The notes beneath the pieces were generated by a model, which did no database searches, was not told the DNA's origin, and worked only from the letters and a program-made list of their open reading frames with translations. Shown here piece by piece: positions 16,271-35,479 of a DNA stretch of 35,479 nucleotides. The position numbers were made by a program, and so were the translations under genes. Numbering within the stretch: the first letter of the stretch is position 1; every line of letters begins with the position of its first letter. Location: the NCBI GenBank assembly GCA_017455295.1, contig JAFTBJ010000079.1, positions 1 to 35,479 on the forward strand. The letters are read 5' to 3'. Source of the stretch: Clostridia bacterium. Its GTDB lineage: Bacteria; Bacillota; Clostridia; Oscillospirales; Acutalibacteraceae.

Positions 16271-16309
16271 TTTCGTATGGATCGCAAGCGGCGATCCGCC
16301 ATATGGAAA

Positions 16310-16393
16310 CGTCCCTCCGCCGGCATTATCCGGATCAGGTTCAGGGTTACGGAAGATTCCGTTCTCAGCCGACAGTGTGTCAGCACCCCTCGT
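16310..16393 (-). ncRNA. TPP riboswitch (THI element)
   Basis: On the minus strand the aptamer shows GGGGTGCTGAC, CGGCTGAGAACGG, the conserved CCCTGAACCTGATCCGG and AATGCCGGCGGAGGGA. These are the invariant segments of the thiamine-pyrophosphate aptamer (pyrimidine arm CTGAGA, pyrophosphate arm). TPP binding should favour the downstream terminator and turn thiT off. The TTGACA-17-TATGAT promoter lies 30 bases upstream. Confidence 0.97.
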
Positions 16394-16422
16394 TTGCTTT
16401 TTCTATGCGATGTGTTTTGCCT

Positions 16423-29100: not shown

Positions 29101-30459
29101 TCAAACGCGTCGCCTGACGGCTTCTAAGTATTCTTCAATCGTCAGAAACCGCCCGTCCATATCTTTGATATGGCGCAGCTTGACATAGCAGCGAGGAAAA
29201 GCGCGCTTGACGGCGGAATACAGATTCGGATAATCTCCTCCGTCTGCAAACCGGTTGGGGGACACATAAAACACCGTCACGCTGTGCGGGTCGCTTTTGG
29301 CCGCCCGCACCAGATAGATGGATATACCGAGCTCATCCATCATGCGCTGCCATCGGTCGACTACCTGCTGCATCGCGTCTTTCTCCGCTTCGGCTTTGGC
29401 TTTTTCCTCCCGCTTTTTGGCTTTGAGCGCTTCTTTTTCCTGCGCTTTTCGACGAAGCGCCTCCCAATAGGACGCCATGTCGTTGCGTTCGAAATACGGG
29501 CACGCTTTGCCGAGGCAATCGTGACTTTCCAACAGCGATTTTGTCAGCGCGCCGCGATGAATATAATGATGGCACCAGCCGACCACATGTTTGCGCTTGA
29601 GCGGAACGTACTCGCCGGTCAGCAGCTTGGTGTTTTTTACCTCGTTTGCCTTTTGTTCGACGGATTCCGGCCATTCCTGTTTTGCCGCATCCGGCTGCGG
29701 CACAGACAGCTTCTTTGTCGTCCGCTCACCCAGATCCGGCCGACACAGGCGGCACGGGCGGCGGCTCTTTGCCGCCGTTTCATAATAGACGGAGCCTTGA
29801 ATATGTGAGACGGATCGCGCGTTCAGGCATGCGGTGCAGGTGGAGCGGTGAAATACCGGAGAACCCGCCAGGTACACATAGTGATACGCAGATCCCATCA
29901 CCTCGATCCAGCGGCGATTATAGTCCCGCCGCATCAGAAAAGGCAGCCGGGCGCGACGATCCGGCGACACCTGCATCACATCCATCACCTGCCGCATCAT
30001 GTCGATGCTGTTGACGCTGCGATGCATGGGAGAAAGCGGCGGTATATTCAAAGCGGTAACCACCGCGTACAAATTGGGGCTGTCGGCGCGCGGAAACGCA
30101 CGCGCAATCGTTCGCGCCATGTCGTATAGCGGCGGACACGGCCGTTCTTTCTCATAGCGCCTCCAAAGCTTTCTCAAAAACCCGGCGTTGGATGCCGCCC
30201 ACGTCCAGATCACGTCATCCGGCTGCAGCCATTCGATCAGATCCCGCACGACCTCCTCCTCGCTTTTCGCCTCTTTAAACCGGCTTTTCTCATACCCGCC
30301 GAGCGGCAATGCCGCCCATTCCAGCGCTTCTTTGGACGGATGCGCCAGCCGCGTGAACCGGTCCTGTTCTTCCCATTGTGTACTCACCCGCATCGCGGCC
30401 AGTTGCGTCAATTCCGCTTTTCCCGCTTCTGCCCATTCGAGATCCAGCAAAACAATCAT
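29101..30459 (-). CDS. DEDD-exonuclease-like protein with Ada-like cysteine motif and coiled coil
   Basis: A 452-residue protein that I recognise only in parts. Residues 1-160 look like a DEDD-type 3'-5' exonuclease fold: MIVLLDLEWAEAG with the D-x-E pair, VIWTWAASNAGFLRKLWRRY where the second acidic motif should lie, and MHRSVNSIDMMRQVM as a degenerate third motif. At ~205-245 is FHRSTCTACLNARSV followed by RRPCRLCRPDL, which resembles the Ada-type zinc-binding or strand-marking motif (H-x4-C ... C-x2-C-RP). Residues ~330-370 are a charged coiled coil (KAKKREEKAKAEAEKDAM). A C-terminal beta/alpha part remains unassigned. No membrane segment is present. The start follows AAAGGAGGTGCTCGACG. 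The gene is monocistronic. A role in nucleic-acid handling is inferred. Confidence 0.6.
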   Translation of the reverse strand: MIVLLDLEWAEAGKAELTQLAAMRVSTQWEEQDRFTRLAHPSKEALEWAALPLGGYEKSRFKEAKSEEEVVRDLIEWLQPDDVIWTWAASNAGFLRKLWRRYEKERPCPPLYDMARTIARAFPRADSPNLYAVVTALNIPPLSPMHRSVNSIDMMRQVMDVMQVSPDRRARLPFLMRRDYNRRWIEVMGSAYHYVYLAGSPVFHRSTCTACLNARSVSHIQGSVYYETAAKSRRPCRLCRPDLGERTTKKLSVPQPDAAKQEWPESVEQKANEVKNTKLLTGEYVPLKRKHVVGWCHHYIHRGALTKSLLESHDCLGKACPYFERNDMASYWEALRRKAQEKEALKAKKREEKAKAEAEKDAMQQVVDRWQRMMDELGISIYLVRAAKSDPHSVTVFYVSPNRFADGGDYPNLYSAVKRAFPRCYVKLRHIKDMDGRFLTIEEYLEAVRRRV

Positions 30460-30550
30460 CGTCGAGCACCTCCTTTAACCATATCTTATCAAAAGAGGTG
30501 TCCGATAAACCGGACAATCGAATTTTTTGCCGAAAATATCCCGAGCAATT

Positions 30551-30688
30551 TGCCGACTGCTCTAAAGGACAGTCGGCAGTTATGAGTTCCGCTGACGCGG
30601 AGCGCTATGAGCGCTTATGGCGCGTTATGATTGCTTTGCAAGTTATGAGTGCCTGCGGCACGTTTGCAAAACTCATATCATAACTTGC
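30551..30688. repeat. Array of short palindromes linked by GTTATGA
   Basis: The 360-base gap 30460-30819 holds no gene. Within it is a chain of small hairpins: 30551-30559/30570-30578 (TGCCGACTG stem), 30588-30601 (TCCGC stem), 30602-30614 (GCGCT stem), 30611-30623 (GCGC stem), 30631-30641 (TTGC stem), 30649-30661 (GTGCC stem) and 30662-30672 (GTTT stem). GTTATGA lies between them at 30579, 30624 and 30642, with weaker forms in the hairpin loops. An inverted copy ends the array at 30678-30688, pairing with 30638-30648 over 11 bases. The stem sequences differ while the linker is kept. The nature of the element is unknown. Confidence 0.7.
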
Positions 30689-30741
30689 CCACAAAACGTG
30701 CCATCCTATCTGTAAGCGGTTTCTTTGCAGCGATATGCGAC

Positions 30742-30785
30742 AAAAATACCGGCTGAATAAGGATCATTTTCCTTACTCAGCCGGT
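30742..30785 (-). terminator. Intrinsic terminator of the CE2 esterase operon
   Basis: Minus-strand ACCGGCTGA (30785-30777) pairs with TCAGCCGGT (30756-30748), with an inner TAAGG/CCTTA pairing, followed by ATTTTTG. Confidence 0.87.
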
Positions 30786-30819
30786 TATTCAACATGAAAG
30801 TACGCCGCTTTTGAAAATA

Positions 30820-33012
30820 TTATGCAAGTCCTGCCGACAGCATATGCCGCACGTCGGTGGTGGAGACGGTGCTGTCGCTGTTATAGTCGGCGGCAGCGGT
30901 TGCCGCGGCGCTAAGCGGCGCCGATTGGCCGAGCAGTGAGCGCAGCACGGCGCGCGCATCGACAGACGTCACCCGCCCGTCTCCTGTGACGTCTCCTGTG
31001 ACGGCGATGATCACGCGGTCAACCACCGCGCCGTTTTGGATCAACTCCAGCGTCATGCCGGTGCCGACAAGGCCGGTCACCGTGTTGCCTTTTGCATCCT
31101 TCACAACCAGCGACGCGGATTGATCCATCATGTTGATCAACCTATCGGCCGTCGTGCCCGCCGGGATATCTCCGAGCACACCGTCCTTGACGGAATAGCG
31201 GCCGGTGATCGTCGAAACGTCGCCCGCCTCATCGGTGAAGCGGCAGTCATACAGCCGCACGCAGGTATCGGTTTGCCCGATCACAAACATATCACAATAG
31301 AGAATCGGCACCAGCCCTTCACTGTCGGCATGGCCCATTTGGCGGATATAGGCGCCGAAATCGACGGTGAGGACGCCGCGATTGTGCGCCGGGAGATCGG
31401 TGCTGTCGATATTGGACAGCGTCGCCGCGTTGACATAGGCGAGCTCGCCATCCGGTTTGCGATAAGTCAGGGAAATATTAAACGCGGTGTCACTGGCAAA
31501 ATCGATCCGCCAATAGGGCGTTTCGTCGATATCCACCAGCGCGTTGTTATAGGCCGTGGTGATCTGCGGCCAATAGAATCCGTCGCCGCCTTTATAGAGC
31601 GCCACCGAACCGTCGCCGTAGCCGTAATACGGCCAGATATAGGAGACGCCGTCCTTGGCGATCGGGGTCTTAGAGATGCCCTCTTTGGGCATCAGCGACA
31701 AACCGCCCGCGTCACCGGCAAGCGCGTTTTCGATCGCTGTCCGCCGTGCGCCGAGGCGATAAGGATCGGTCGTGCCGACGGCCAGTTCCGTCTCCGCACG
31801 GGCGACAGCCCCCGCGATCGTCGCGGTCTGCGTGGCGGCTTTGGCGGTGTTGATCGCCGAGCGCAGCTGCTCCGCTGTCGCTTTGGCCGACGTATAGTCG
31901 GACGGCAAAACGGTGTTCAAGAGAAAGTCGGAGAGCACGTCGCCTGCCGCTCGCTGCTGTGCCACTGTGGGATGGGTCACCGCGCCGGACATGCCCTTCG
32001 GGAGGATCAGGAAATAATACCCCGCCGCCTCGCCGCCGAGCTCGTTTTGCGCTGCGGTGATCTCGTTTTGATAAAATACGCCCGACATGCCGGTGCACCA
32101 GACGATCTTGGCGTTCAGGTTATAGTTTCGCGCCATCTGCATCAGGTTCTTCGCACCGGCTTTGAATTCCGCGTTGGAGAGGTTATTGGCCGAGCGGGTG
32201 GCATAGTCGTTGTCGCCGAGATTGATGACCACCACATCCGCCTGCGGATCAAACGCATAGGCGGATGTTTGATCGCGCCACCAGCAGGTGATCGGATACA
32301 TCATCTGCAGATTGACATCGCGTCCGTTCCACCCGGCGACGCAGCCATAGCCGCTCGTCTGGGTCACGCGGACATCCGCTCCGAGCGTCTTGCCCGCAAA
32401 GAAGGCGTAGGTCTGGGTGCCGTCCTCATAATAGGGATCGTTGTCGCCGGGATCCGCGACGCCGAGCGACGAGTTCCACAGGCAGCCGTACCCGCCCGAA
32501 AGCGAGTCTCCGATCACGTCGATCACGAGCGGTTTATCGGGCGCGCCGCTCAGCAGATGCCCCGTGAAGGTGAGTGCCTCCGCACAGCAAAGGGAAATCT
32601 GCGCCTCGGTCTGGCGATACACCTCAATATGGTGCGCGCCTTGCGAAAGACCGCTTGCCAGTTTGATCCATGTCCGCTCGTGCACGTTTTTCTGCGAGCA
32701 GGAAACGCGCACGCGCGATGACTGCCCGTCTACGGCGACCAGCAGATATTGCTCCGCTTCAAACTCCGAATTGCACAGCACGGTCGCCGTCAGCGTCACA
32801 TCCCCCCGCCCTTCGAAATAGACCTCAAAGCCGGAGGCAACATCATCCATATATAAACAGTTTGCCTGCTCGACCGTACGGCCGAGCGTGTGATAATAAC
32901 CGTGCATCCGTCCGAACGTAAGCGTCTGCGTCTCATCCGCCGAAGCGAAAGCAACCGGCAGGCAAAGTGCGAGCAGACAAGCGATGCACAGAATGATCCA
33001 CACATATCTCAT
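30820..33012 (-). CDS. Secreted CE2-type SGNH acetyl esterase with dockerin (downstream copy)
   Basis: A 730-residue exported esterase. The signal peptide runs to about AFASADE (residue 26). Residues ~28-155 form the CE2 N-terminal jelly roll (SGFEVYFEGRGDVTLTATVL, GLSQGAHHIEVYRQTEAQIS). The SGNH domain follows with Ser170 in VIDVIGDSLSGGYG, VVINLGDNDY and the histidine in AVTHPTVAQQ. A helical stretch, a beta-rich module (~455-620) and a dockerin with DVTGDGRVTSVD and DYNSDSTVSTTD complete it. CE2 enzymes remove acetyl groups from plant xylan or mannan. The dockerin suggests assembly on a cellulosome-like scaffold. The ATG at 33012 has GGAGGACGATC upstream; an earlier start lacks such a site. 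It is a paralogue of the next gene, 23 bases apart. Confidence 0.88.
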   Translation of the reverse strand: MRYVWIILCIACLLALCLPVAFASADETQTLTFGRMHGYYHTLGRTVEQANCLYMDDVASGFEVYFEGRGDVTLTATVLCNSEFEAEQYLLVAVDGQSSRVRVSCSQKNVHERTWIKLASGLSQGAHHIEVYRQTEAQISLCCAEALTFTGHLLSGAPDKPLVIDVIGDSLSGGYGCLWNSSLGVADPGDNDPYYEDGTQTYAFFAGKTLGADVRVTQTSGYGCVAGWNGRDVNLQMMYPITCWWRDQTSAYAFDPQADVVVINLGDNDYATRSANNLSNAEFKAGAKNLMQMARNYNLNAKIVWCTGMSGVFYQNEITAAQNELGGEAAGYYFLILPKGMSGAVTHPTVAQQRAAGDVLSDFLLNTVLPSDYTSAKATAEQLRSAINTAKAATQTATIAGAVARAETELAVGTTDPYRLGARRTAIENALAGDAGGLSLMPKEGISKTPIAKDGVSYIWPYYGYGDGSVALYKGGDGFYWPQITTAYNNALVDIDETPYWRIDFASDTAFNISLTYRKPDGELAYVNAATLSNIDSTDLPAHNRGVLTVDFGAYIRQMGHADSEGLVPILYCDMFVIGQTDTCVRLYDCRFTDEAGDVSTITGRYSVKDGVLGDIPAGTTADRLINMMDQSASLVVKDAKGNTVTGLVGTGMTLELIQNGAVVDRVIIAVTGDVTGDGRVTSVDARAVLRSLLGQSAPLSAAATAAADYNSDSTVSTTDVRHMLSAGLA

Positions 33013-33035
33013 GATCGTCCTCCAAAACACGATTC

Positions 33036-35225
33036 TCACATAACCCCCGCGGACAGGATCTGCCGCACGTCGGTGGTGGAAACGGTGTTGTCGCTGTTAT
33101 AGTCGGCGGCAAGCTGCTGCGCGGTGTTCAGCGGACTGGCATCATCTAAGAGCGAGCGCAGCACGCCGCGCGCATCGGTGGAGGTAGCGCGGCCGTCGCC
33201 GGTAACGTCGCCTTTGACGGCGATGATCACACGGGCGAGCAGCGTGCCGTCGCCATAGAGCTCGAGCGCCATGCCGGTGCCGACCAGGCCGGTCACCGTA
33301 TTGCCGCTGCCGTCTTTCACGAGGACCCCGGTGCTGTTATCCAGCGCGGCAAGCAGGCCGTCCGCCGTCACACCGGCGGCGATGTTGTACATCACGCCGT
33401 CTTTGACCGGGTAGCTGCCCGTGATGGCCGAAGGGGCGCTGTCCGCTTCGCTCGTGAAGCGGCAGTCATACAGCCGCACGCAGGTGTCGGTGCTGCCGAT
33501 CACGTACATATCGCACGAGATGATCGGCACCAAGCCTTCGCTGTCGGCGTGCCCCATTTTGCGGATATACGCGCCGAAGTCGACGGTGGTGGCGCCGCGT
33601 GTGTGGGCGGGAAAATCGGTGCTGCCGATACCGGCAAGCTCCGCCGCGTTAACATACGCAAGCTCGCCGTCTGGGCGGCGATAGGTGATCGCGATATTGA
33701 AGGAGGCGTTGCTGCCGAATTCAAACCGCAGGTAAGGCGTTTCGTCGATGTCCACCAGCGCGTTATACGATGTGGTGATGCACGGCCAATAGAAGCCGTC
33801 GCCGCCTTTATAGAGTCCCACCGAGCCGTCGGTGTTGCCGTAATACGGCCAGATGTAGGATGTGCCGTCCGCGGCGGTCGGGGTTTTGGAGATGCCCTGC
33901 TTCGGGACGAGCGACAGGCCGTCCACTTTGCCGGAGAGAGCCGTCTTGATCGCCTGCAGACGGGCATAAAGGCGATACTGGTCGGTGGTGCCGACGGCAA
34001 GCTCCGCTTCCGCACGGGCGACCGCGCCCGCGATCGTCGCGGTCTGCGTGGCCGCTTTCGCGGTGTTAATCGCCGAGCGCAGCTGCGCGGCGGTCGCTTT
34101 GGCCGACGTATAATCGGACGGCAGAATCGTCGAAAGCAGGAAGTTCGAGAGCATCTGCCCCGCCGCCGTTTGCTGGGCCACCGTCGGGTGGGTCACGGCG
34201 CCGGAGGTGCCTTTCGGGAGCAGCAGGAAATAGTAATCGGCCGAAGCGCCGCCGAGCTCGCTGATCGCTTCTTCCACTTCGGGTTGATAGTAAGTGCCCA
34301 TCATGCCGGTGCACCAGATAACCTTGGCTTTCGGATTATAGGTCTTCGCCATCTGCATCAGGTTCTTTGCGCCCGCTTTGAATTCCGCATTGGTGAGGTT
34401 GTTCATCGTGCGGGTGCCGTAGTCGTTGGTGCCGAGGTTGATCACCACCACATCCGCCTGCGGATCAAAGGGATAGGCAAACGACGTGCTGCGCCACCAA
34501 CAGGCAAGCGGATACATTGTCTGCAGGGTGACATCACGCCCGTTCCATCCGGCGACGCAGCCGTAGCCGCTCGTCTGGGTCACGCGGACGTCCGCGCCGA
34601 GCGTTTGACCGGCGAGGAAGGCATACGTCTGGGTGCCGTCTTCATAAACGGGATCGTTGCCGCCAGGGTCGGACACGCCGAGCGACGAATTCCAGAGACA
34701 GCCGTAGCCGCCGGAGATGGAGTCGCCGATCACGTCGATCACAAGCGGTTTATCGGGCGCTTGTGCAAGGAGATGCCCAGTGAAGGTCAGGCTCTCGGCG
34801 CGGCAGCGCGAGATCTGCGCTTCCGTCTGGCGGTACACCTCGATGTGGTGCGTGCCCTGCGCAAGACCGCTTGCGAGCTTGATCGCTTTGAGTTCCTCCA
34901 CGCTTTTCTGCGCGCAGTCCACCCGTACCCGTGAACGCACACCGTCCACGATCACCGTGAAAAACTGCACCGCTTCAAAATCAGAGCAGCACATGACCGT
35001 CGCATTTAGCGTGACGTCGCCGCGACCCTCAAAATAGATCTCGAAACCGGACGCGGTGTTGTCCATATAGAGGCAGGTCATGTATTCGACCGTGCGGCCG
35101 AGCGAATGATAATAGCCGTGCATCTGCCCGAAGGAGAGCGTCTGCGTGTCGTCCGCCGACACGGCAAACGGCAACGCCGCCAGCAGCATTGCCGCCACAC
35201 ATACCATTGCAAGGCATCGTTTCAT
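33036..35225 (-). CDS. Secreted CE2-type SGNH acetyl esterase with dockerin (upstream copy)
   Basis: A 729-residue paralogue of the adjacent esterase with the same domain order throughout: signal peptide (MKRCLAMVCVAAMLLAALPF, cut near VSADD), CE2 jelly roll, SGNH domain with Ser169 (VIDVIGDSISGGYG), VVINLGTNDYGTR and AVTHPTVAQQ, helical linker, beta module and dockerin (DVTGDGRATSTD, DYNSDNTVSTTD). The long identical stretches show a fairly recent tandem duplication. The start follows GTGAGGGTTTATC and there is a promoter at 35259-35287, so this is the first gene of the pair. Differences cluster around the oxyanion region (TNDYGTR versus DNDYATR) and the dockerin contact residues. Both should act outside the cell on acetylated glycans; substrate is not known. 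Confidence 0.88.
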   Translation of the reverse strand: MKRCLAMVCVAAMLLAALPFAVSADDTQTLSFGQMHGYYHSLGRTVEYMTCLYMDNTASGFEIYFEGRGDVTLNATVMCCSDFEAVQFFTVIVDGVRSRVRVDCAQKSVEELKAIKLASGLAQGTHHIEVYRQTEAQISRCRAESLTFTGHLLAQAPDKPLVIDVIGDSISGGYGCLWNSSLGVSDPGGNDPVYEDGTQTYAFLAGQTLGADVRVTQTSGYGCVAGWNGRDVTLQTMYPLACWWRSTSFAYPFDPQADVVVINLGTNDYGTRTMNNLTNAEFKAGAKNLMQMAKTYNPKAKVIWCTGMMGTYYQPEVEEAISELGGASADYYFLLLPKGTSGAVTHPTVAQQTAAGQMLSNFLLSTILPSDYTSAKATAAQLRSAINTAKAATQTATIAGAVARAEAELAVGTTDQYRLYARLQAIKTALSGKVDGLSLVPKQGISKTPTAADGTSYIWPYYGNTDGSVGLYKGGDGFYWPCITTSYNALVDIDETPYLRFEFGSNASFNIAITYRRPDGELAYVNAAELAGIGSTDFPAHTRGATTVDFGAYIRKMGHADSEGLVPIISCDMYVIGSTDTCVRLYDCRFTSEADSAPSAITGSYPVKDGVMYNIAAGVTADGLLAALDNSTGVLVKDGSGNTVTGLVGTGMALELYGDGTLLARVIIAVKGDVTGDGRATSTDARGVLRSLLDDASPLNTAQQLAADYNSDNTVSTTDVRQILSAGVM

Positions 35226-35417: not shown

Positions 35418-35479
<62 letters not shown>

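Follow-up and report, generated by a model that had tools for sequence, protein, structure and literature searches.

A solo, decayed hairpin array in a Clostridia contig belongs to a dispersed family of Gut-1-like elements

What is a string of small hairpins with unrelated stems, separated by one and the same heptamer, doing in a gap between two genes? The question is raised by positions 30551-30688 of a 35,479-nucleotide stretch of a Clostridia bacterium (contig JAFTBJ010000079.1), which as a whole is referred to here as the window. A preliminary description had reported seven hairpins, GTTATGA linkers and a terminal inverted TCATAAC. The linkers are present as described, with exact copies of GTTATGA at 30579, 30624 and 30642; the heptamer at 30604 is degenerate (GCTATGA), and that at 30678 is inverted. 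Hairpins with unrelated stems do lie between them (30552-30577, 30586-30603, 30611-30623, 30631-30641 and 30649-30661), but the number seven is reached only when overlapping alternatives around 30602-30623 and a central arm at 30662-30677 are counted. GTTATGA occurs nine times in the window where 2.8 exact copies are expected, and none of 100 shuffles contained nine or more. The array also folds more stably than any of 200 dinucleotide shuffles, whether treated as plus-strand RNA (z -4.8), minus-strand RNA (z -4.5) or DNA (z -5.2). The array is real and not a product of chance.

The array lies, as first reported, between two minus-strand genes: one at 29101-30459, whose start faces the array and whose product has a weak match to an exonuclease domain, and one at 30820-33039, whose end faces it and whose product resembles a dockerin-bearing GDSL esterase. 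The latter gene and its neighbor at 33036-35225 are adjacent paralogs (dockerin plus GDSL-like esterase), with DNA about 72% identical over a 470-bp stretch. Elsewhere in the window there are a TPP riboswitch (16295-16400, minus strand) and a tRNA (35418-35479, plus strand) that is cut by the window end. The array is not a CRISPR, as had been stated from the start, since its repeat has 7 nt as opposed to direct repeats of ~23-47 nt and its "spacers" are palindromic rather than non-palindromic and unique. We also rejected an integron attC array, as the GTTATGA linker does not fit the core site GTTRRRY/RYYYAAC.

A chance low-complexity sequence should have no relatives, and this reading is not supported, as copies were found both in the same genome and in many others. 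Two further sites were detected by blastn within the same genome (1.88 Mb in 230 contigs). L033 is a partial copy (83% over 75 bp); L034 has the start hairpin and the 3′ part in common with the window copy but carries the linker GCGATAT. GCGATAT-hairpin-GCGATAT pairs occur 41 times in this genome versus 0 for the reversed pattern, and 37 times in the examined part of it versus a mean of 0.12 for permuted heptamers. When contigs were scanned for three consecutive GTTATGA copies, real arrays appeared in Clostridia (Ruminococcus sp., Oscillospiraceae and assemblies named "Clostridia bacterium"), several of them matching the window in the identity and order of their hairpins. This identical order recurs with sharp ends at many unrelated sites in other Clostridia, one genome having 43 full or partial matches. 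Copies are found in both orientations, are present or absent between related genomes, and are decaying. Plasmid and phage collections gave no match to the full element, 71 pattern hits in IMG/VR included no real arrays, and the terminal repeat was absent there as well, which led us to reject a phage or plasmid origin. The possibility that arrays form the two arms of a composite transposon, considered at C23 and C60 of genome G013 and at C143 of the own genome, was likewise rejected, as the genes in between are ordinary. The open-access literature that we searched contained no description of the element.

Full copies, from which the unit was defined in Ruminococcus-type assemblies, are ~220-420 bp long and strictly ordered. 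They begin with TATGCCGACTGTTCTGAAGGACAGTCGGCA, followed by four units of GTTATGA plus a hairpin and, at the center, by the first unit in inverted form; the second half consists of two to three units of TCATAAC plus a hairpin, then GACGTTTGGCACACAAACGTCCTGCTTGCAGAGATATGCGAC, a terminator-like hairpin ACCGGCTGAAATAAGG...CCTTACTCAGCCGGTTTT and finally AACTGTCCTTAAGAGTACCTCGCATA. The ends are imperfect terminal inverted repeats of ~25 bp, one of which lies within the start hairpin. Compared with this plan, the positions 30551-30688 contain only the 5′ part of a larger, degraded element that extends over about 30549-30805 (plus strand), as judged by end-to-end alignment with a full copy (L101) and by ends defined from many copies in unrelated flanks. 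The start hairpin TGCCGACTGctctaaaggaCAGTCGGCA (30551-30578), whose stem is invariant in 14 copies, holds the 5′ terminal inverted repeat (core TGCTCTAAAGGACAGT, 30558-30573). It is followed, on the same strand, by an exact linker 1 (30579-30585), hairpin 1 (GTTCCGC-tgac-GCGGAGC, 30586-30603), linker 2 (30604-30610, degenerate here and GTTATGA in other copies), hairpin 2 (GCGC-ttatg-GCGC, 30611-30623), an exact linker 3 (30624-30630), hairpin 3 (TTGC-ttt-GCAA, 30631-30641), an exact linker 4 (30642-30648) and hairpin 4 (GTGCC-tgc-GGCAC, 30649-30661), the four hairpins being delimited by the sequence and by a 14-copy alignment. Comparison with other copies identifies the center (30662-30677, plus strand) as an inverted linker 1 plus the 5′ arm of hairpin 1, reading GCAAAACTCATA here and GCGGAACTCATA in intact copies, and an exact inverted linker TCATAAC occupies 30678-30684 on the minus strand.

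Beyond this point the window copy is shortened and degenerate. Alignment with L101 shows one inverted unit and the GACGTTTGG segment to be absent and the 3′ repeat to be eroded. The remnant of the second half lies at 30685-30730 (plus strand), with that inverted-linker/hairpin unit and the GACGTTTGGCACACAAACGTC segment missing; it is followed by a terminator-like hairpin, ACCGGCTGAGTAAGG...CCTTATTCAGCCGGT plus ATTTTTG (30748-30785, minus strand), which is conserved in full copies, and by the eroded 3′ terminal inverted repeat (30786-30805, plus strand). The window copy is a solo, decayed member of a dispersed family of Gut-1-like hairpin-array elements. On balance we think it probable that the array forms the structured core of an element of gut Clostridia that is dispersed, non-coding and probably mobile, and that the copy in the window is old and has been deleted in part.

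The preliminary observation that pairing is maintained although the stems vary is borne out when homologous copies are compared. In 14 aligned copies, 93.8% of hairpin cells are paired (25-40% in slid controls), and eight pairs have changed on both sides, a number reached in 0 of 500 shuffles. Whole-element folds have z values of about -8 to -12; that of L101 has -141 kcal/mol as opposed to -90 for its shuffles (z -10.3). In this predicted fold the GTTATGA copies are base-paired to the TCATAAC copies, and the resulting stem is divided into short pieces with a hairpin at each cut. Among 22 arrays folded, 20 had 33-100% of their linker bases paired with inverted linkers, while such pairing was absent in two, L091 and L148, the latter being poorly delimited. 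Four versions of the linker and its inverted form are found (GTTATGA/TCATAAC, ATGATGA/TCATCAT, GTGAAAT/ATTTCAC and GCGATAT/ATATCGC), the second of them with homologous hairpins in L229 and L241, and linker and distant complement switch together throughout all units of a copy. A motif that occurs in both orientations yields complementarity for free; the pairing is nevertheless supported by a strict order: in nearly all two-directional arrays the linkers of the first half have a single orientation and those of the second half the opposite one. The linkers thus appear to be more than spacers, in that they are predicted to pair with inverted linkers as a segmented stem in full copies. Many of the GCGATAT arrays in the own genome are one-directional and must therefore fold as separate hairpins, so that linker pairing is not universal. 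The joint replacement of a linker and its distant complement amounts to an unusually clear natural covariation experiment.

These data bear on the possibility that the variation of the stems is a mutational product in selfish DNA whose fold has no function. Quasipalindrome correction, by template switching during replication, perfects imperfect palindromes, and short stems with small loops such as those seen here are its typical product. The concerted change of all linkers with their distant complements is not easily explained in this way, and we regard the process as a distinctly unlikely account of the array as a whole; it may still be acting within single hairpins.

Three hairpins whose stems vary, connected by one unchanging 7-nt linker, make up the plan of Gut-1 (RF01706), a structured RNA candidate (Weinberg et al., 2010, PMC2864571), which was listed in 2010 as occurring in the human gut only and was known from environmental sequences alone (PMC2864571). 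The Rfam consensus and alignment show this plan with the linker GUGAAAU, and the window array follows it with three such hairpins and the linker GTTATGA. The Gut-1 covariance model gave no match to window positions 30500-30850 even at an E value of 10, and the window copy is therefore a sister version rather than a scored member of Gut-1. In contrast, copies with the linker GTGAAAT, set in the same terminator-inserted frame, score 70-77 bits against a cut-off of 50 bits: the GTGAAAT version is Rfam Gut-1. A GCGATAT copy (L034/L048) with the same ends as the element matches the model over its full length at 45.3 bits, which is below the cut-off, and the own genome has a single place above it (C34, 55.6 bits). 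In six genomes Gut-1 was found at up to 48 places, often as pairs on opposite strands that correspond to the two halves of a single element. The Rfam model spans 77 nt of an element of ~320 bp and includes neither the inverted half, the ends nor the terminator-like hairpin. Given the identity of the GTGAAAT version, Gut-1 is most reasonably regarded as a piece of this element family and not as a free-standing noncoding RNA, and an orphan Rfam family gains a concrete home in a dispersed Clostridia element that sits in transcription terminators.

Alternatively, the host may keep the array for its function, as a Gut-1-type noncoding RNA or as an mRNA element that acts as an attenuator, insulator or mRNA stabilizer, with its spread being secondary. 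The strong conservation of the fold and the description of Gut-1 as a structured RNA candidate (PMC2864571) would fit such a role, as would the many GCGATAT arrays between genes, some of them just before ribosome-binding sites. We nonetheless consider it unlikely, as the copies occur at unrelated sites, vary in presence between related genomes, take both orientations and decay.

Complete copies have an A-tract and a stem on one side, and the matching strand of the stem with a T-tract on the opposite side. AAAA was present in the 5′ flank of 19 of 22 copies and TTTT in the 3′ flank of 21 of 22; with homopolymers masked, flank complementarity exceeded that of 95% of mismatched flank pairs in 7 of 22, with clear flank stems in L204, L289, L216 and L242. 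A search for empty sites, in which the joined flanks of copies served as the query, uncovered an empty terminator in genome G063 (...ACTCAATAAAAAACGCGGTATCAAAACCGCGTTTTCTGTTACC...) at the site that is filled in G064 (...ACTCAATAAAAAACCGCGGCAC[element]CTCAACATCCGCGTTTTTTGTTACC...), with the same genes around. Here the insertion went into the loop of an intrinsic terminator. The loop differs between the two genomes and there is no clear target-site duplication. For the window copy, no orthologous flank or empty site was found in congeners, and its flanks have no clear terminator stem. The early statement that the array is not a terminator is only half correct, as the full element contains a terminator-like hairpin and relatives sit inside terminators. 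A terminator would probably be a harmless site for an element that brings its own. In the own genome, one-directional GCGATAT arrays (L329-L337) occupy an intergenic niche that differs from that of terminator-inserted copies, lying between genes and in several cases immediately downstream of a stop codon or upstream of a ribosome-binding site.

In being short, non-coding, folded and present in many copies with terminal inverted repeats (intact in full copies, with the 3′ repeat eroded in the window), the element resembles a MITE. One might thus suppose an ordinary MITE, in which a transposase supplied in trans, of the DDE or another type, reads the ~25-bp repeats and prefers terminator loops, the array being passive and S23 (discussed below) an unrelated cargo. 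Besides the repeats on both ends, this is favored by the fact that their core also delimits terminator-inserted units of quite different content, some of them single genes or operons that lack arrays. These array-less units, which measure ~0.3-4 kb, make a transposase in trans a serious rival for copies of the window type. However, no partner transposase was found in any unit read and no target-site duplication was recognized, arrays are also found without these ends, and the concerted linker change and conserved fold suggest that the array matters; the inner hairpin array and the preference for terminator loops also set the element apart from a MITE. We see the MITE explanation as a real possibility that falls short of an even chance. 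The clustered ORFs of the units read included no transposase or other moving enzyme, a weak negative given that MAG assemblies are incomplete. An autonomous transposase was rejected, as the units bounded by terminal repeats yielded only cargo, DUF559, TnpV and DUF6809-like ORFs (by Pfam for those tested).

The initial proposal of a REP-like mobile element stands in part: the family is dispersed, multi-copy and structured, with defined ends and an empty orthologous site for one relative, but it does not qualify as a true REP, since conservation is confined to linkers and ends and does not include the stems of the units, and since related arrays are associated with a PF05635 (S23) gene. Like REPs and BIMEs, it forms intergenic clusters of short palindromes in many copies, with a conserved part that alternates in orientation. 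An element of this kind, moved by a REP-associated tyrosine (Y1) transposase (RAYT), is nevertheless highly improbable, since REPs are built on one conserved palindrome whereas here the stem differs in every unit and the linkers are conserved, the copies carry terminal inverted repeats, and no such transposase lies beside the copies read. BOX elements of Streptococcus (PMC3049150) are similar in being dispersed, MITE-like and strongly folded, with modular ends and a variable number of inner structured modules; this comparison concerns plan and not sequence, and boxB modules are conserved in sequence whereas in our element only the linkers are conserved and the stems change.

Some relatives of the array adjoin genes for PF05635 (S23), a widespread small helical protein known from selfish rRNA insertions, to which the Gut-1-like family is thereby linked. 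S23 is known from rRNA intervening sequences (IVSs), which have been called selfish and replace small tetraloops of 23S helices (PMC4990558). A profile built from two PF05635 proteins identified 11 ORFs in 490 loci that had been partly selected for arrays; 10 of the 11 lie 0-104 bp from an array, or 9 of 10 independent cases, as L030 and L324 are one locus. The eleventh (L307) has an array with the linker GTGAAGT/ACTTCAC directly before its start codon, and in L153 and L372 arrays lie on both sides of the ORF. Pfam confirms PF05635, and the nearest solved chain is 2rld. Among 30 PF05635 loci of the class, chosen regardless of arrays, a heptamer was over-represented in the flanks (p ≤ 0.01) in 10, compared to 0 of 30 distant control stretches, with no significant heptamer at the other 20. 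Four loci (L506, L508, L510 and L512; linker GCTAAAT/AGCTAAA) show forward units, an inverted center and inverted units just upstream of the PF05635 gene. The single PF05635 gene of the own genome (C34) lies directly behind a terminator and a Gut-1 array. The window copy itself has no PF05635 ORF inside or beside it. In addition, PF05635-like genes in a Deltaproteobacteria MAG (L137) and a Bacteroidales MAG (L128) are bordered by tandem GAGTTATGAGTAATGA-type heptamers, with no good hairpins, and heptamer arrays near S23 may thus extend beyond Clostridia in a simpler form.

The IVSs, for example that of Coxiella (PMC4990558), and the array elements would have in common that they are selfish, form stems and occupy loops of small hairpins, a parallel that we draw by analogy. 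They differ in that an IVS lies in rRNA with an ORF inside, whereas the window copy lies between protein genes, not in 23S rRNA, and contains no ORF. In the mechanism that we favor, the element, in the form of RNA or single-stranded DNA, would fold into one segmented stem by pairing of linkers with inverted linkers, with hairpins budding at the junctions. This folded strand could be recognized by the S23/PF05635 four-helix-bundle protein, encoded beside the array in some relatives, and a nuclease, transposase or reverse transcriptase would place the element into loops of small hairpins, namely terminators here and rRNA helices in the case of S23-bearing IVSs. We infer that the element may be mobile at present, that S23 may play a role and that the folded strand, whether RNA or single-stranded DNA, may be the substrate. 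The terminal-repeat frame is shown for copies of the window type; the S23-linked arrays may be moved by different machinery, the array being what both have in common. More broadly, we tentatively propose, as an idea that is more doubtful than not, that heptamer-linked arrays, Gut-1 and S23-bearing IVSs form one selfish class, in which the fold is handled by an S23/Avd-like protein, insertion occurs into the loops of small hairpins, those of terminators in most genomes and those of rRNA helices in known IVSs, and each lineage has a linker code that changes together with its complement.

Other units in intrinsic terminators have the same ends. An inverted-repeat core of ~17-25 bp, TNYTCTNAAGGACAGT, which is present in 58 of 396 genomes of the order, bounds units at L286:1755-5800, L287:188-4149, L284:628-1675, L296, L301, L317, L318, L316, L464 and L473. 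Their cargo includes GH2 with a ROK regulator, a glycyl-radical enzyme with its activase and an AraC regulator, NUDIX, peptidase S51 and methyltransferase-like genes, with no recognizable transposase. These units resemble mobile gene cassettes with terminators as their targets, and they may be a larger discovery than the array. A near-identical ORF of ~122 aa with an endonuclease-fold domain (DUF559) recurs in terminator-inserted units (L264, L272, L273, L301, L316, L462 and L464) and adjoins another dispersed palindromic repeat (CTCCCTTGTGCAAAGGGAG...). A further version of the terminal repeat, GTGTTCTTAAGGACAGTTACTG... (L274, L307, L309 and L282), leads into units with TnpV (PF14198) and a DUF6809-like ORF.
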